NCBI GenBank assembly: GCA_902582105.1
Contig: CACHQT010000004.1
Span: 1-61,779, forward strand
Direction of reading: 5' to 3'
Length of the DNA: 61,779 nt
Source of the DNA: an uncultured Pelagibacteraceae bacterium
Lineage (GTDB): Bacteria; Pseudomonadota; Alphaproteobacteria; Pelagibacterales; Pelagibacteraceae
A model generated the notes under the pieces. It did not search any database. It had not been told where the DNA came from and saw only the letters and a program-made list of their open reading frames with translations. The stretch's first letter is position 1, and the number at the start of each line of letters is the position of its first letter. This document shows, piece by piece, positions 26,251 through 34,062 of the stretch. Both the position numbers and the translations under genes were made by a program.

Positions 26251-26633
26251 AAAACTAAATTTCTTCCTAAAATAAAAATAAAAATTGTTAAAATAAATGA
26301 TCCAAAAATAACTATAAGGCCAGTTATATTTGAGGTTTTTAATTCAAATCCTATTCCAAAATCCCAAAATAAATGTCTAATTTCACTTAAGATTTGAAAA
26401 GAAAAAGACCAAGCAGTAGCAATAATCACAAATTTACCAAAAAAAGTTCCAAAGAAATTATGTATTAATTCATAATTTGAATTTCCTAAAAGCAAAAGTG
26501 ATACCCAAAAACAAATTAAAGTTATAATTATTATATTTATAATACCAGTTATTCTATGAGAAATTGAAATCAAAGATGATATATGCCAATTATAAATTTG
26601 AATATGTGGTGATATTGGATTATCGTTTTTCAT
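26247..26633 (-). CDS. sdhC: Succinate dehydrogenase cytochrome b556 subunit SdhC
   Basis: Membrane anchor of complex II. The family N-terminus PISPHIQIYNWHISSLISISHRITG includes the quinone-site serine and arginine (Ser23, Arg27). Three membrane segments follow at about 30-50, 66-84 and 104-125. The second signature reads QILSEIRHLFWD; compared with the usual HxxxGIRHLxWD, the haem ligand histidine is Gln80 (CAA at 26394-26396) and the glycine is Glu84. Length 128 is normal. It starts one base into the asd stop and overlaps sdhD by 4 bp. Confidence 0.93.
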   Translation of the reverse strand: MKNDNPISPHIQIYNWHISSLISISHRITGIINIIIITLICFWVSLLLLGNSNYELIHNFFGTFFGKFVIIATAWSFSFQILSEIRHLFWDFGIGFELKTSNITGLIVIFGSFILTIFIFILGRNLVL

Positions 26634-27628
26634 TAATTGTTTTTTATATATGCTTCAGCTATTTCCACGGAGTTCAATGCGGCTCCTCTTAACAAGTTGT
26701 CAGAAACACACCAAAGGTTAATCGAGTTTTTATTTGTATTATCTTTTCTAATTCTAGAAATAAATGTTTCGTTTTTTCCTTCAGCTTCAACTGGTGTTAT
26801 ATAACCTCCATCTTTCCTATCATCAATAACCTTGCATCCATCAGCGCTATTTAAAGCCTCAGTAATTTTTTCCAAAGTGAATGGTTTTTCAAATTCTATA
26901 TTCAAAGATTCTGCATGAGAAACGAGCACCGGAATTCTTACACATGTTGCTGTTAGTTCTATTTTACTATCTAAAATCTTTTTAGTTTCATTAACCATCT
27001 TTATTTCTTCTTTTGTATATCCTTCCTCAACAAACACATCAATATGAGGAATTGCATTAAATGCAATTTGTTTAGTAAAATTTTTTGAAATAATTTTTTT
27101 ATTATTTAAAGAAAGTTTAGTTTGCTCTATCAGCTCATCCATCGGCGCTTTACCTGCGCCTGAAGTAGACTGATACGTAGAAATAACTACTCTTTTGACA
27201 TTAAACAAATCATGTAATGGTTTTAAAATTATAACGAGTTGGGCTGTTGAACAATTTGGGTTTGCGATTATATTTTTTTTTAAATTTTTTAGTTGGTTTG
27301 AATTAACCTGAGGAACAATTAAGGGTACATCGGGATCCATTCTAAAATGACTCGAGTTATCTATTACAACAGAATGTTTTGCAGCAATTGGAACATATTT
27401 TTCAGAAATTTTTCCTCCTGCTGAAAAAAAAGTAATATTTGCTTTTGAAAAATCAAAGCTTTCTAAATTTTCAACTTCAACTTCTTTGCCTTTGAATTTT
27501 AATTTTGATCCAGCACTTTTAGATGATGCAACTAAATACAAATTACCTATAGAAAAGTTTTTTTTTTCTAAAACTTCAATAATTTTTCTTCCAACATTTC
27601 CTGTTGCGCCTACTATCGCTATATTCAT
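26633..27628 (-). CDS. asd: Aspartate-semialdehyde dehydrogenase
   Basis: Reduces aspartyl phosphate to aspartate semialdehyde for lysine, diaminopimelate, threonine and methionine. The NADP-binding IAIVGATGNVGRK is at the N-terminus, and the catalytic Cys126 is in NPNCSTAQLV. SLNIEFEKPFT with a histidine in VSHAES completes the active site. Length 331 is typical. It follows dmdA by 15 bp and overlaps the start of sdhC. Being beside dmdA may be only operon packing, although both relate to sulfur and methyl metabolism through methionine. Confidence 0.95.
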   Translation of the reverse strand: MNIAIVGATGNVGRKIIEVLEKKNFSIGNLYLVASSKSAGSKLKFKGKEVEVENLESFDFSKANITFFSAGGKISEKYVPIAAKHSVVIDNSSHFRMDPDVPLIVPQVNSNQLKNLKKNIIANPNCSTAQLVIILKPLHDLFNVKRVVISTYQSTSGAGKAPMDELIEQTKLSLNNKKIISKNFTKQIAFNAIPHIDVFVEEGYTKEEIKMVNETKKILDSKIELTATCVRIPVLVSHAESLNIEFEKPFTLEKITEALNSADGCKVIDDRKDGGYITPVEAEGKNETFISRIRKDNTNKNSINLWCVSDNLLRGAALNSVEIAEAYIKNN

Positions 27629-27643
27629 GATGAATTAGTTATA

Positions 27644-28753
27644 CTAAATGAAAGGTAAATCGCAAACTTTTCCCTCAAAAACATCATCATTTATTGATAT
27701 TTTAAATGTTTCCGAAACTTCAAAGTAAGGTTTATCAATCATTGCGATCCCAATTACTTTTTTAAAATGTGGTGAATAAGTTCCTGATCTTAATTCACCA
27801 ATTTTTGAATTTTTTCCATTAATAAGATTGATTGATTTTGATACATTTATTTCTTTTGCATCAATTACTACCCCCATTAACTTTCTTGTAACTCCTTTTT
27901 TTTTAATTTCTTTTAGTTTTTCTTTTCCAAGAAAATTAATATCTGTATCTAAATTTACATATTTATCTAATCCACACTCCAGTGGGTTATCATCATTATC
28001 CATATCATTACCATATGATAATAAAGCACTTTCAATTCTTTCAATTAAATTTGGACAACCAGCTTTTACATTAAATTCTTTTCCAACTTCAAATAATTTA
28101 TCATATAAAGCTAATCCTGATTCTGTATTTTCTACATAAATTTCATAACCTCCTTGTTTTGACCACCCAGATTTTGCAATTAAATGTTTTGCTCCTGCAA
28201 ATTCAAAATAATCAAAACCAAAAAATTTCATTTCGGTTATTTTTTTTCCAAATATTTTTTCCATAAGCGCAAATGATTTTGGTCCTTGCACAGCTAATAT
28301 ATCAACGTTGGGCTCAAATATTTTAACATCAAATTTGTTTCCTATGGCTAATCCTTTTGCAAATAAAATAACATCTGAGTCTGCGATAGAAATCCACCAA
28401 CGATCTTCTCCTAGTTTTAAAATTACAGGATCATTAATAATTCCTGCTTTATCATCAATAATTGGACAATAATAACATCTTCCTATTTTAGATTTTGATA
28501 GATCTCTACACGTCATTAATTGAACTAATTTTCCAGAGTCTTTGCCAGATATTTCAACTTGTCTTTCTCCAGCTACATCCCAAACTTGTACATTTTCTTT
28601 TAAATGATGGTAAGAATCTTCTAAAGATCCAAAAGCAGCAGGCAAAAGCATATGGTTGTAAGATGTATAAGCAGTCACACCTTGTTTTTCAATTCTTGAA
28701 GTGTATGGTGTGCTTCTAAGTCTTCTAGATCTTGCAATAGAATAATTTTTCAT
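27644..28753 (-). CDS. dmdA: Dimethylsulfoniopropionate demethylase DmdA
   Basis: Transfers a methyl group from DMSP to tetrahydrofolate, giving 3-methylthiopropionate (MMPA) and 5-methyl-THF. The 369-residue protein belongs to the GcvT/aminomethyltransferase fold. Segments [16 protein letters not shown] and [19 protein letters not shown], and the length, match my memory of Pelagibacter DmdA rather than true GcvT. The ATG overlaps the stop of the upstream hydrolase gene (ATGA). With dmdB- and dmdC-like genes upstream, context supports demethylase rather than glycine cleavage. No gcvH or gcvP is nearby. Confidence 0.92.
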
Positions 28754-29532
28754 TTATTTTTTTGTATAAATTCTTTTACTAATTTTCTCATTTCAAATGC
28801 TTTTTCAAAAAGTATCATATGACCACAATTTGAAATAATTTTGGTTTGGCAGTTTTTTATCTGCTCTGACATTTTAACTCCAACCTTAATTGGCACCATT
28901 TTATCTAATTCTCCAAAAATACATAACGTTGAACAATTAATTTTTTTAATTGCATTTTCGCCATCCTTATAATTATTACAGGCGTTTAAGTCTACTGCTA
29001 ATACTTCTCGGATAGCTCTTGCAGAATTTACAATTTTTTTCACTGGATTCCCGCCTATAAAAGCTTTAGATCCCTCATAGCCCCATTTCATCATTAACAA
29101 AACTGCTTTTTCGTCTCCAGACTCTGCTAAATCTATAAGTTCTCTGTTAACTGGCATTTTGTTTGAACCAGCAACTAAAACCAACTTGTCAATTAACTCT
29201 GGATATCTAGAAGCAAAGTCAATTCCAACAAGAGTTCCTTGTGAGTGTCCCATAAAACTAATTTTGGAAAGATCTAAAACATTAATTAAAGATTTTACCC
29301 AATCAGAAATTGACTCAATAGATTTTAAAGAAGGTCCCTCAGATTCTCCATGACCTGGTAAATCTACTGATAGAACATTAAATCCATTTGCTGAGTAAAA
29401 TTGCTCATGGAGAGACCAGACTATATGTGTAAGTCCACTGCCGTGCATCAATAAAATTGATGGCTTGTTTTTATCAATACTCATGCCACTAGTTGACATG
29501 AATACGTCTTTATTATCGACGTTTAAATTCAG
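28750..29532 (-). CDS. Alpha/beta hydrolase in the dmd operon, apparent CTG start
   Basis: Predicted soluble serine hydrolase. The oxyanion region is LMHGSG, the nucleophile elbow is GHSQG, the acid lies in FGELDKMVP and the histidine in [10 protein letters not shown], so the catalytic triad is complete. An ATG at 29499 has no upstream ribosome-binding site. A CTG at 29532-29530 lies 5 bases after AAGGAG (29543-29538) and overlaps the stop of the ligase gene; starting there adds 11 residues that fit the family's usual N-terminal strand. The 3' end overlaps dmdA by an ATGA. The substrate is unknown; context suggests an ester or thioester from DMSP breakdown. Confidence 0.8.
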
Positions 29533-31157
29533 TTTAACTCCTTGGCCTTTTTTCTTAATTCAAATTTTTGGATTTTTCCCGTAGATGTCTTTGGAAGTTC
29601 ACAAAATTCAACTTTTTTTGGAACTTTAAAGCTTGCAAGAGTTTCTTTACAAAAAGAAATTAATTCTTTTTCAGTAACTGGCTTATCTTTAACCATTTCT
29701 ATAAATGCACAAGGAACTTCTCCCCACTTTTCATCAGGTTTTGCCACTACTGCAGCAATAGATACGGAAGGATGTTTCGCTAATGTATTTTCTATCTCGA
29801 TTGATGATATATTTTCGCCACCAGAAATAATTATATCTTTAGATCTATCTTGTATCTTTACATAGCCATCTGGATGCATTACTGCCAAATCTCCTGTGTG
29901 AAACCATCCACCTTTCATCGCTTTATCTGTAGCATCTTTGTCTTTAAAATAGCCTTTCATTACTATATTTCCTCTAATCATTATCTCGCCAATTGTTTTA
30001 CCATCCCTTGGAACCTCTTTCATAGTCTCTGGATCCATAATTGTTGCACCTTCTGTATTTGGGTATCTCACTCCTTGCCTAGCTTTAATCTCATTTTGTT
30101 TTTCTTCCTCCAAATCTTCCCATGACTCATTCCATGCACATTGAGTTACATGTCCGTAGGTTTCAGTTAACCCATAAACATGCATTACTTCAAAACCAAG
30201 ATTTTTCATTTTTTTAAAAATAATACTCGGTGGAGGCGCACCTGCAGTTAATACATAAACTTTATGTTTTAATTTTTTACGATCGCTTTCAGGTGCTCCA
30301 GTAATCATATTAAGTACGATTGGCGCACCTCCAAAGTGAGTTACATTATATTTTTCTATTAGTTCAAAGATTTTTTTAATATCAATATTTCTAAGGCAAA
30401 TTGTTCTTCCATTTAACATCGGAACAGTCCAAGGATAACACCAACCATTGCAGTGAAACATTGGTACTATAGTTAGAAAGTTTAATCTGTTTGGCATATT
30501 CCATGCTACTGCACTACCAGTAGCCATTAAATATGATCCTCTATGATGATACACAACTCCTTTTGGGTTTCCTGTTGTGCCAGATGTGTAACTTAATGAA
30601 ATAGCTTGCCACTCATCTTCTGGCATTTTCCAAATATAGTTCTCATCGCCGGTATTTAAAAATTCTTCATACTCTAAATTACCAATTTTTTCTAATTTTG
30701 ACTGGTCTGCATATTTATCATTTATATCAATTATGGTAATTTTTTTTTTTATAGCGTTTAATGCTTTTTTAACCTCTGTATGAAGTTGTCTATCAACAAC
30801 TAAAACTTTTGCATCACTGTGTTCTAAAATGTAGCCGATAGTCTTAGCGTCTAATCTGATATTAATTGTATTTAATACTGCACCAGTCATAGGAACAGAA
30901 TAATGAGCTTCAAAAATTTCTGGAGTATTAAAAGCCAAAAATGAAACTGTATCTCCTTTTTGAATTCCAATTTTCTCTAATGCGCTCGCAAATTTAATAC
31001 ACCTTTTATACACTTCACTCCAAGTATATTTTCTATCTTCATATACGATTGCTTCATAATTTGGATAAATATCTTTGGCTCTTTGTAAAAAAGATATAGG
31101 TGTTAGTGGAACAAAATTAGCATCATTTTTATTTAAATTTGTTTCGTAGTGACTCAT
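29529..31157 (-). CDS. dmdB: Acyl-CoA ligase, probable MMPA-CoA ligase DmdB
   Basis: AMP-forming acyl-CoA synthetase of 542 residues. The ATP-binding signature SLSYTSGTTGNPKGVV is near 185-200. The hinge/adenylate segment is GWFHTGDLAVMHPDGYVKI, and the catalytic lysine is in KTSTGKIQKFELR at the C-terminus. The family also covers medium-chain and aryl-acid ligases. Assignment to MMPA + CoA + ATP -> MMPA-CoA rests on the operon: it lies between a dmdC-like dehydrogenase (5-bp gap) and the hydrolase-dmdA pair. Function as a ligase is sure; the substrate is inferred. Confidence 0.82.
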   Translation of the reverse strand: MSHYETNLNKNDANFVPLTPISFLQRAKDIYPNYEAIVYEDRKYTWSEVYKRCIKFASALEKIGIQKGDTVSFLAFNTPEIFEAHYSVPMTGAVLNTINIRLDAKTIGYILEHSDAKVLVVDRQLHTEVKKALNAIKKKITIIDINDKYADQSKLEKIGNLEYEEFLNTGDENYIWKMPEDEWQAISLSYTSGTTGNPKGVVYHHRGSYLMATGSAVAWNMPNRLNFLTIVPMFHCNGWCYPWTVPMLNGRTICLRNIDIKKIFELIEKYNVTHFGGAPIVLNMITGAPESDRKKLKHKVYVLTAGAPPPSIIFKKMKNLGFEVMHVYGLTETYGHVTQCAWNESWEDLEEEKQNEIKARQGVRYPNTEGATIMDPETMKEVPRDGKTIGEIMIRGNIVMKGYFKDKDATDKAMKGGWFHTGDLAVMHPDGYVKIQDRSKDIIISGGENISSIEIENTLAKHPSVSIAAVVAKPDEKWGEVPCAFIEMVKDKPVTEKELISFCKETLASFKVPKKVEFCELPKTSTGKIQKFELRKKAKELN

Positions 31158-31162
31158 AATAA

Positions 31163-32929
31163 TTAATTGAATTTAAAGTCCATTATATATTTGCTTCCAG
31201 TAGTTGCAGACAAATAATGACTTTCTACTCTAGGTAAGACTCTATTGAAATAAAAATTTGCAGTTTGAATTTTATCCTCATAAAAATCTTTGTTATTTGA
31301 ATAATCCTTATAACTAACCTCTAGAACTTTCAGCCAAGAATAGCCAATTGCAACATAACCAAGCACTCTTAAATAATCATTTGAAGCTGCATTCGCATCA
31401 TCTTTAGAATTTTTTATTTTTTCTTTCATCCAGCCTGAAAATAAGTTTAATTTCTCAATATACGTTTTAAGTTTTTCTACAAATGGTTTTAAATTATCAT
31501 TACTATCATTTAAATCACTTGAGATCATTTTAATATAATTATCAATTACATCGCCGTTCTTATTAACTAATTTTCTAAATACTAAATCAATTGCTTGAAC
31601 AGAATTTGTTCCTTCATAAATTGGGGTAATTCTATTATCCCTATATAATTGCTCAATGCCCTGGTCTTTAGTGTAGCCATATCCACCATATATTTGCATT
31701 GCATCGCTTGTTATTTCCATTCCTAAATCTGAAAATAAAGATTTTACAACTGGGGTCATTAAAGAAACTAGATCAGTTGCTTCTTGCTTAATTTTTTGGT
31801 CACTATGGTTTAAACTTACCTCAGTTTGTTGAGACAACCAGAAACATAATGCTCTTTCTCCTTCTATAATTGATTTCATATTTAATAAAGTTTTTCTTAT
31901 ATCTGCATGTTCAATAATTAGATCAGCACTACCATTTTTTGATTTACTGTTATTGCTTTTTCCTTGTTTTCTTTCTTTCGCATAGCTTAGTGAATTTTGA
32001 TAAGCAATTTCTGACAAACCTAAACCTTGTATTCCTACTACAATTCTCTCTAAATTCATCATTGTAAACATTTGGCTTAGTCCCTTATTTTTTGGACCAA
32101 TCATATAGCCAAGCGCATCATCAAAATTTAAAACACAAGTAGCAGAACCTTTTATTCCCATTTTTGTTTCGATAGATCCCGTAGATATTCCATTTCTAGT
32201 TCCAATAGTTCCATCTTCTTTAACAATAAATTTTGGTACCAAAAATAAACTTATTCCTTTTGTGCCTGGTGGAGAATCTGAAGCTCTTGCAATTACTAAA
32301 TGAATAATATTTTCTGTAAGATCATGATCGCCTGAAGTAATAAAGATTTTTTGTCCTGTTATTTTAAATGTACCATCACCTTGTTCTGTTGCTTTTGTTT
32401 TAAGCAATCCAAGGTCAGTACCACATACTGGTTCTGTTAAGCACATTGTTCCACTCCATTTTCCCTCAACCATCTTTGGTAGATATTTATCTTTTATTTC
32501 GTCTGTTGCATGATGATGAATACAATTATAAGCTCCAAGTGTTAATTCGCTATAAAGTTTAAATGCAAGACTAGATGATGATAACATTTCATCAAAAAAT
32601 GCACTCACAGTTCTTGGCATTCCTTGTCCTCCATATTTAGGATCACAAGATAAAGACGTCCAACCATCTTCAATAAACTTTCTATATACATCTTTATAAC
32701 CAGGCGGTGTCCTAACAACTCCATTTTCTAAAACAGTAGGATTTTCATCTCCAGCTTTTGCAAGGGGTAAAATTAAATTTTGATTAATTTTTGCAGCTTC
32801 TTCTAAAATATTCTTAACCAATTCAGAGTTAACTTCTTTATATTTTTCAATCTCATTATAGTTTTTATTATTTCTTAACTTATCGAAAAGAAACATCATA
32901 TCTTCTAGTGGAGCTGTGTAATTTGGCAT
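31163..32929 (-). CDS. dmdC: Acyl-CoA dehydrogenase, probable MMPA-CoA dehydrogenase DmdC
   Basis: FAD acyl-CoA dehydrogenase of 588 residues, the long form typical of DmdC rather than the roughly 390-residue short-chain enzymes. Visible parts are the flavin/substrate region MCLTEPVCGTDLGLLKTKA with ITGQKIFITSGDHDL, the C-terminal YGGYGYTKDQGIEQLYRD and the catalytic glutamate in IYEGTNSVQ near residue 430. A C-terminal extension of about 140 residues follows. Oxidation of MMPA-CoA to methylthioacryloyl-CoA is inferred from the dmd context. It starts 26 bp after leuB. Confidence 0.82.
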   Translation of the reverse strand: MPNYTAPLEDMMFLFDKLRNNKNYNEIEKYKEVNSELVKNILEEAAKINQNLILPLAKAGDENPTVLENGVVRTPPGYKDVYRKFIEDGWTSLSCDPKYGGQGMPRTVSAFFDEMLSSSSLAFKLYSELTLGAYNCIHHHATDEIKDKYLPKMVEGKWSGTMCLTEPVCGTDLGLLKTKATEQGDGTFKITGQKIFITSGDHDLTENIIHLVIARASDSPPGTKGISLFLVPKFIVKEDGTIGTRNGISTGSIETKMGIKGSATCVLNFDDALGYMIGPKNKGLSQMFTMMNLERIVVGIQGLGLSEIAYQNSLSYAKERKQGKSNNSKSKNGSADLIIEHADIRKTLLNMKSIIEGERALCFWLSQQTEVSLNHSDQKIKQEATDLVSLMTPVVKSLFSDLGMEITSDAMQIYGGYGYTKDQGIEQLYRDNRITPIYEGTNSVQAIDLVFRKLVNKNGDVIDNYIKMISSDLNDSNDNLKPFVEKLKTYIEKLNLFSGWMKEKIKNSKDDANAASNDYLRVLGYVAIGYSWLKVLEVSYKDYSNNKDFYEDKIQTANFYFNRVLPRVESHYLSATTGSKYIMDFKFN

Positions 32930-32955: not shown

Positions 32956-34062
32956 TTATTGCAATTTTGAAATTATCGCATCACCCATTTGAGAGGTAGA
33001 TACTTCCTTTTTGCCTTTTGATATAATATCTTTTGTTCTTAAACCATCATTTAGCACATCTTGTACAGCTTTTTCTAAATTGTCAGCTTCTTTATCTAAG
33101 TCTAGCGAATATCTTAATGCCATAGCAAAACTTAAAATTGTTGCTATTGGATTTGCAATTCCCTTACCGGCTATGTCTGGAGCTGAACCATGTATTGGTT
33201 CATACATAGCTCGCATTTCACCATCCTTATTTTTTGCACCTAATGACGCTGAGGGCAAAAGGCCTAATGAACCGGTTAACATGGATGCTTGATCTGACAA
33301 CATGTCTCCAAACAGGTTATCAGTTACAATAACATCAAACTGCTTAGGATTTCTTAGCAATTGCATAGCACAATTATCAGCTAGCATGTGATTTAATTCA
33401 ACTTCTTTAAACTCTTCATCATGTAAGGTTTGGACCTCTTCTTTCCAAAGTTGTCCTGCCTCCATTACATTTGATTTTTCACAAGAAGTAACTTTATTCG
33501 ATCTTTTTTTGGCTAAATCAAAAGCAACTCTTGCTACTCTTACAATTTCACTACTAGTATAAGAATGAGTATTAATTCCTTTTCTTTCACCATTGTCTAT
33601 AGGCTTAATGCCTCTTGGTTCTCCAAAATATATACCTCCAGTTAGCTCTCTTACAATCATAATATCTAAACCCGAAACAATTTCAGGTTTAAGAGTAGAT
33701 GCATCAACCAATTGTTTAAAACATATTGCTGGTCTTAAATTTGCGAATAATTTTAATTCTTTTCTTAATTTCAATAAAGCTCTTTCAGGTTTTTTAGAAA
33801 ATTCAAGATTGTCCCATTTGGGTCCGCCAACTGCACCTAATATTACAACTTCACTTTCTAGAGCTTTATAAAAAACTTCATCTGTAATTGGAGTTCCATG
33901 CGCGTCATAAGATGCACCTCCTGCCAAATCTTCATCAATTTCAAAATCTAAAGATTTTTTTGAATTAAACCATGTAATAATTTTTTTTACCTCATTAGTT
34001 ACTTCTGGACCAACGCCGTCTCCTGGCAAAAGTAAAATTTTTCGTTTTTTAACCTTAATCAT
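32956..34062 (-). CDS. leuB: 3-isopropylmalate dehydrogenase
   Basis: NAD-dependent oxidative decarboxylation in leucine synthesis. [12 protein letters not shown] opens the protein; [19 protein letters not shown] and [26 protein letters not shown] are characteristic, and [19 protein letters not shown] marks the cofactor/substrate region. The length of 368 is normal. It overlaps leuD by 8 bp. Transcription order is leuC-leuD-leuB; leuA is not in the window. Confidence 0.96.

Follow-up and report, generated by a model that had tools for sequence, protein, structure and literature searches.

Gene order and products of the operon

The window analysed here is a stretch of 61,779 nucleotides from an uncultured Pelagibacteraceae bacterium (assembly GCA_902582105.1, contig CACHQT010000004.1, positions 1 to 61,779), the genome of which is 75.6% complete. 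At positions 27,644 to 32,929 it carries an operon for the demethylation of dimethylsulfoniopropionate (DMSP), in which four tightly packed genes lie on the minus strand in the order dmdC-dmdB-hydrolase-dmdA (Table 1). The present work concerns the alpha/beta hydrolase gene (abH) between dmdB and dmdA. In the SAR11 family the hydrolase was found either in this operon or, as a second form, directly behind metY, and its product is a candidate for the step that releases methanethiol (MeSH). The presence of the gene in SAR11 is already in print (Sun et al. 2011, PMC3160333), and the link to metY is new here. The genes dmdA, mhpC, fadD and mmgC of SAR11 Ia in that paper are apparently the same four; however, the role of the hydrolase, the metY-linked form and a FadB-headed operon are not mentioned in the part of the paper that was available. 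No publication on the role of the hydrolase or its pairing with metY was found in the open-licence literature.

The DmdA of the window exceeded the cut-off of the NCBIfam DmdA equivalog NF009133 (579.6 bits, cut-off 410). DmdB exceeded that of the general ligase/acyl-CoA synthetase model NF006020 (872.9 bits, cut-off 677) and fell below NF005426, the 3-(methylthio)propionyl-CoA ligase equivalog (349.8 bits, cut-off 822). The PDB entry matched by DmdB, 6ihk, is a DmdB structure, and the SAR11 enzyme has reportedly been assayed as DmdB. The match of DmdC to 6ijc, a DmdC structure, covered query residues 1-583. The gene order recurs throughout the SAR11 family, which is beyond chance; a repeat search of the operon gave nothing informative. 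The preliminary description of this DNA had joined the four genes by a 5-bp gap and short overlaps and had found neither DmdD nor AcuH. The 5-bp gap between dmdC and dmdB and the 4 bp (ATGA) shared by the hydrolase stop and the dmdA start were confirmed, and the operon of the window contained no crotonase. The overlap of dmdB with the hydrolase requires a CTG start.

The hydrolase exceeded the cut-off of Pfam PF00561 (82.3 bits, cut-off 25.8), and its Pfam matches at E 0.001 were alpha/beta hydrolase-type families alone, with no ECH (crotonase) family among them. It stayed below the cut-off of every NCBIfam model that it matched, and NCBIfam gave no family name. The scores with the PcaD, RutD, BioH and MenH equivalogs were 75.0, 61, 73.1 and 70.3 bits against cut-offs of 255.85, 238.5, 206.95 and 208.55, respectively. 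The structure was predicted with a local distance difference test score (pLDDT) of 92 and a template modelling score (pTM) of 0.91. In the comparison of this model the nearest fold was a PcaD-type 3-oxoadipate enol-lactonase (2xua; Z 34.6, 254 residues, root-mean-square deviation 1.9), and RutD (3v48) followed with Z 30.7 over 249 residues and a deviation of 2.2; many esterases, including aryl esterases, were among the other neighbours. PcaD, RutD, BioH and MenH are near in fold and sequence models, but they share only about 20% identity with the hydrolase, and their NCBIfam cut-offs were not reached. Ser97, Asp210 and His238 (260-aa numbering) were invariant in alignments of 18 and of 40 relatives and were assigned as the putative catalytic triad. 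In the 40-row alignment W150 and A184 were invariant as well.

Table 1. Genes and sequence signals of the operon and its flanks.
Feature	Position	Strand	Description
dmdC	31163..32929	-	acyl-CoA dehydrogenase (MMPA-CoA dehydrogenase; MMPA, methylmercaptopropionate; CoA, coenzyme A), 588 aa; Pfam PF12806, PF00441, PF02770, PF02771; PDB 6ijc, 3e-153
dmdB	29529..31157	-	AMP-forming acyl-CoA ligase (MMPA-CoA ligase), 542 aa; NF006020; PDB 6ihk, 2.1e-78
alpha/beta hydrolase (abH)	28750..29532	-	260 aa from CTG 29532; 249 aa from ATG 29499
dmdA	27644..28753	-	DMSP demethylase, 369 aa; NF009133
AAGGAG, Shine-Dalgarno-like	29538..29543	-	5 nt upstream of the hydrolase CTG
CTGA, proposed hydrolase start on the dmdB stop	29529..29532	-	same in 24 distinct operon relatives
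asd, aspartate-semialdehyde dehydrogenase	26633..27628	-	downstream flank; common to most genus loci read
leuB	32956..34062	-	upstream flank in own genus

Distribution of the hydrolase in the SAR11 family

The survey of the family covered 247 genomes, which are related and partly incomplete. The operon form was present in 111 genomes, a count that takes in fragments and the distant L068 (G054), and the second form, 44-48% identical, in 26; no genome had both. With dmdB counted at 60% identity or more (133 of the 247 genomes), hydrolase and dmdB occurred together in 131 genomes, the hydrolase only in 6, dmdB only in 2 and neither gene in 108. This threshold excluded matches of 50-51% identity (G145 and G199, and second matches of G034, G042 and G102) and the fragment G216, which, if counted, would be the third dmdB-only genome. 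A contig-cut piece of dmdB was present in two of the six hydrolase-only genomes (G068 and G101; L018 and L053). Where the operon form and dmdB were both present (108 genomes), the two genes were within 30 bp of each other in 75 genomes and 1.2-1.4 kb apart in 28; other gaps were found in two, and in three the genes were on separate contigs.

DmdA exceeded its cut-off in 131 genomes, three of which were left unplaced. The hydrolase or a close relative was present in 124 of the 128 placed dmdA genomes: within 30 bp of dmdA in 90, at about 0.9 kb in 8, on another contig in 1 and as the metY-linked form in 25. None was found in the remaining four. The gene is therefore not absent or elsewhere in most dmdA-bearing SAR11 genomes, a finding that would have refuted the preliminary description.

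The hydrolase tracked dmdB better than dmdA. In L076 (G046) and L077 (G130) the order was dmdB-hydrolase-asd with no intervening dmdA, and L068 had fadB-dmdC-dmdB-hydrolase and no dmdA. These three dmdA-less operons may be fed with MMPA that does not derive from DMSP. A gene for a Gfo/Idh-type oxidoreductase was observed between hydrolase and dmdA at L074:5994-6920 and L075:5958-6881, and eight genomes had a gap of that size.

The second form linked to metY

MetY (O-acetylhomoserine sulfhydrylase) turns MeSH into methionine. In all 26 genomes with the second form, the hydrolase abutted the end of metY on the same strand, as determined from tblastn boundaries, and an ATGA overlap of the two genes was read in 7 distinct cases; metY was truncated at a contig end in two of the 26 (L080, L116). 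The metY of L062 passed both NF006004 (665.2, cut-off 636) and TIGR01326 (611.3, cut-off 495.1), and the metY of the other loci was 93-100% identical to it. A second metY was located further downstream in 10 of the 26 stretches. Two different MetY paralogues stood in one cluster with the hydrolase in L064, L065, L066, L067, L080 and L102-L106. In many SAR11 genomes the metY-linked hydrolase was followed by a 369-aa protein (L062:4551-5660, L064, L066, L107-L119), for which neither Pfam nor NCBIfam gave a match at the thresholds applied and which resembles a methyltransferase by eye.

In 24 of the 26 metY-linked genomes the dmdB-dmdA junction left no room for a hydrolase; the operon was not seen whole in G222 and G226. 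Of 25 hydrolase-free dmdB-dmdA junctions, 24 belonged to genomes with a metY-linked copy, the exception being G172. The common metY had no adjoining hydrolase in any of 18 loci (L124-L141), taken from 14 operon-form genomes and 4 with neither form. The sole metY found in the genome of the window is on contig C19, and no such hydrolase was present within about 1.5 kb of it. Joined sequences of leuB, dmdC, dmdB, dmdA and asd from 48 loci gave a tree on which the operon and metY-linked states required at least 5 changes, a number that recombination could inflate; G172, labelled metY-linked in this tree for lacking an operon copy, was nested among such genomes. The loss of the operon copy repeatedly accompanies the metY-linked copy, as is expected if one substitutes for the other.

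Both forms retained the triad and the lid residues R172, D181, A184 and C185 in the 18-row alignment. In the hydrolase tree the operon rows formed one clade (97/98), and the metY-linked rows grouped at 85/92. L068 was placed outside both groups on a long branch joining the very long outgroup row, which makes the root unsure.

The hydrolase family outside SAR11

Of 385 alphaproteobacterial genomes searched with a profile of the SAR11 hydrolases, 108 gave a match at E 1e-45. Outside the family of the window there were 105 such genomes, with E values down to 7e-108. Neighbouring genes were read for 27 of these 105, and metY was directly upstream on the same strand in all 27 loci. The same was determined for 80 named loci: all of them had a same-strand metY no more than 2.1 kb upstream, and in 78 it was directly adjacent. 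These were the best 80 of 495 relatives, ranked by similarity to a metY-linked query and so partly selected for that form, and two of them were SAR11. By record title the 80 loci were alpha-, beta- and gammaproteobacteria except two. The two, L202 and L255, are titled Polyangiaceae and Actinomycetota and carry a metY-hydrolase pair of proteobacterial type; these bins may be misnamed.

The hydrolase of the window was 28-38% identical to 37 family members from outside SAR11 and 45-46% identical to 2 SAR11 metY-linked ones, and by its sequence it is a member of the MetY-linked hydrolase family. The proteobacterial metY-linked enzymes share with it the profile family, the triad and a short junction to the upstream gene; in contrast, their partner is metY instead of dmdB and their lid is about 8 residues longer. 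MetY was present in all of 100 neighbourhoods, the FadB-like family in 12 and, shadow frames aside, other families in at most 21. In L172, from another family, fadB-dmdB-metY-hydrolase formed one run, L182 had dmdC-metY-hydrolase-fadB, and metY-hydrolase-fadB was read in L175-L177, L185 and L188. Since its family is partnered chiefly with metY outside SAR11, the hydrolase is not DMSP-specific by origin. In bacteria that are not expected to use DMSP, MMPA formed from methionine might supply the substrate, or MetY may be served directly. The pairing points to a shared, unnamed methanethiol/methionine step in many non-marine bacteria.

FadB-like hydratase and crotonases

In 21 sister-genus loci (L068, L074, L075, L077, L082-L097, L100), dmdC is immediately preceded by a gene for a FadB-like dehydrogenase-hydratase fusion, which occupies the leuB flank position. 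The FadB domains were PF02737, PF00725 and PF00378 (3-hydroxyacyl-CoA dehydrogenase and hydratase). The hydratase domain of the FadB in the genome of the window retained GGGEE and LVE at the positions of the two catalytic Glu of crotonases.

In 13 loci of two sister genera (L082-L093, L097), OsmC-like and ECHDC3-like crotonase genes, as in L085, stood between dmdB and the hydrolase. The crotonase of L085 was over the cut-off of NF006008 and matched human ECHDC3 (2vx2). By motif, the crotonases of L082 and L085 were without both catalytic Glu. The crotonase beside abH in the sister genera is ECHDC3-like and hence not a plain hydratase.

The idea, drawn from the incomplete genome of the window, that FadB is the sole crotonase of the SAR11 genus was rejected. 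The search covered 46 genus genomes, 45 at 95% completeness or above plus that of the window, and 45 of the 46 had a crotonase match, mostly FadB together with a standalone protein; one match was obtained in the genome of the window. Three standalone crotonases were read. L278 and L281 were ECHDC3-like and without the two catalytic Glu, and L280, located by a CaiB-like gene, kept one.

Proposed role of the hydrolase

According to the part of PMC5069961 that was available, SAR11 rank among the primary DMSP consumers and produce MeSH, Ca. Pelagibacter ubique has no DmdD orthologues, and the MeSH-release gene of Pelagibacter was not identified. The hydrolase is tied to both sides of this gap, with DmdB upstream of it and MetY downstream, which makes it a candidate for the releasing step. 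In the available part of Tan et al. 2013 (PMC3660561), DmdD combines hydration, followed by the spontaneous loss of MeSH that leaves malonate semialdehyde-CoA, with hydrolysis of the CoA ester.

Our tentative preference, which we rate as plausible but somewhat short of probable, is that the hydrolase acts between methylthioacryloyl-CoA (MTA-CoA) and MeSH as a CoA-thioester hydrolase after hydration by FadB, the two genes replacing DmdD. DmdA, DmdB and DmdC would lead to MTA-CoA, which the FadB-like hydratase would hydrate. The resulting hemithioacetal would shed MeSH spontaneously to give malonate semialdehyde-CoA, the thioester of which would be split by the hydrolase. Malonate semialdehyde would decay to acetaldehyde and CO2, and MetY would trap MeSH as methionine. 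FadB and the hydrolase would thus jointly do the work of DmdD alone. This route fits because the hydrolase adjoins a CoA ligase and a dehydrogenase, FadB-headed operons exist and the metY-linked copy swaps in. The context is strong; the substrate, the reaction and FadB as the hydratase are suggested by gene context and conserved residues. The DmdD of Ruegeria pomeroyi would have the same place after DmdC, its reaction ending likewise in MeSH, CoA and malonate semialdehyde. However, DmdD, a crotonase, uses two Glu for both hydration and hydrolysis (PMC3660561, available part), whereas the Ser-Asp-His hydrolase of SAR11 could only hydrolyse.

Several points weigh against this assignment. Members of the family are found in Bradyrhizobium, Azospirillum and betaproteobacteria, where DMSP use is unexpected, and the basic function may be connected with MetY rather than MTA-CoA; the route by itself leaves the metY-hydrolase pairing in such bacteria unexplained. 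The operon form is a separate clade, so its function could have shifted. In the window's own genome FadB is encoded on another contig, and the FadB hydratase domain matched PF00378 weakly and in part. In G172 (L069) dmdB meets dmdA with no hydrolase between them, and the search of this genome found no copy. The Fisher p value for the co-occurrence of hydrolase and dmdB, 9e-60, is inflated by kinship and overstates the case. The neighbours of the predicted model settle the fold of the hydrolase, not its substrate. Another fate of MMPA, namely a second demethylation, was proposed by Sun et al. 2011 (PMC3160333, available part).

The preliminary description had suggested that the hydrolase acts on a CoA thioester or a side product of the pathway, for example MTA-CoA or MMPA-CoA, or removes a toxic ester. 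The idea of a pathway role was supported in part, as the gene is conserved and the operon of the window has no crotonase. A role at the release of MeSH or beside it now seems likelier than the hydrolysis of MMPA-CoA, given that the hydrolase goes with dmdB more closely than with dmdA, persists without dmdA and belongs to a family that is mainly paired with metY outside SAR11.

The explanation that survives best beside the two-gene replacement of DmdD, though we consider it unlikely, is that the hydrolase serves MetY. It would cleave an ester or lactone during the synthesis of methionine, for instance an S-methyl or acetyl ester or an acylhomoserine by-product. The SAR11 copy would then sit in the DMSP operon since DMSP supplies MeSH for MetY. 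MetY is indeed the sole constant neighbour (27/27 and 80/80 loci, 100/100 neighbourhoods), and the second metY downstream in 10 of the 26 SAR11 stretches points in the same direction. However, a service to MetY leaves three features unaccounted for: the SAR11 copy is fixed between dmdB and dmdA, it stays with dmdB in the dmdA-less L076, L077 and L068, and in several lineages the metY pair is accompanied by fadB, dmdB or dmdC. Nor is the hydrolase a simple stand-in for MetX. That candidate was rejected since MetX-like genes (TIGR01392) were found elsewhere in 20 of 24 genomes, among them 9 of 10 in the SAR11 family, which included both hydrolase forms and gave E values of 1e-133 to 1e-137. All 20 matches were below the 500-bit cut-off of TIGR01392, and some outside the family were weak; no MetX-like gene was found in the incomplete genome of the window.

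A wider scheme, to which a small probability is assigned, is that a proteobacteria-wide, unnamed hydrolase frees MeSH from a sulfur ester and hands it to MetY, with an S-methyl thioester made by FadB as the substrate in SAR11, malonyl-CoA as the carbon product and the gene in the DMSP operon. If the unnamed step is real, SAR11, one of the primary DMSP consumers, would carry the enzyme in its DMSP operon instead of by metY. Quite improbable in our opinion is the corresponding chemistry, in which FadB would hydrate and then oxidise the hemithioacetal to the S-methyl thioester of malonyl-CoA, and the hydrolase would free MeSH and leave malonyl-CoA. The fusion of 3-hydroxyacyl-CoA dehydrogenase and hydratase in FadB would suit this sequence, and the hydrolase itself would release MeSH, in keeping with its partnership with MetY. 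To our knowledge, an S-methyl malonyl-CoA thioester intermediate has no precedent. Moreover, the loss of MeSH after hydration is described as spontaneous in the available part of PMC3660561, which would leave scant time for oxidation.

The tight linkage to the CoA ligase gene dmdB would also be in accordance with a thioesterase for housekeeping or proofreading, one that salvages CoA when MMPA-CoA stalls or clears toxic acyl-CoA; the preliminary description had anticipated this in part. The chance of such a role is nevertheless slim, for the hydrolysis of MMPA-CoA would reverse DmdB and the metY-linked form would be left unexplained. A bystander esterase retained through genome streamlining, with no pathway role, is highly improbable: the unrelated leuB and asd do closely flank the operon, but the same family recurs by metY across proteobacteria, and the hydrolase-free dmdB-dmdA junctions, G172 excepted, belong to genomes with a metY-linked copy.

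Start codon of the hydrolase

The junction of dmdB and the hydrolase depends on the start codon. Initiation at the CTG gives a 4-bp overlap (CTGA) with the dmdB stop, and the earliest ATG, GTG or TTG is at 29499, 29 bp beyond dmdB. CTGA at the end of dmdB opens 24 distinct operon hydrolases (window, L001-L023 and L027 junctions). In 13 of these 24 the earliest ATG, GTG or TTG does not come until codon 28 or 29, immediately ahead of the HGSG motif (residues 30-33). A further 36 operon hydrolases open with TTGA, which overlaps the stop in some of them but not in all. Many relatives have AAGGAG or a near variant at the same site as the window; it falls in the dmdB codons AAG GAG, and its conservation is therefore partly protein-driven. 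The CTG start is favoured because relatives share CTGA at the dmdB end, and the hydrolase probably initiates at the CTG and is coupled to dmdB. Callers of open reading frames that are restricted to ATG, GTG and TTG would truncate the N-terminus of the hydrolase.

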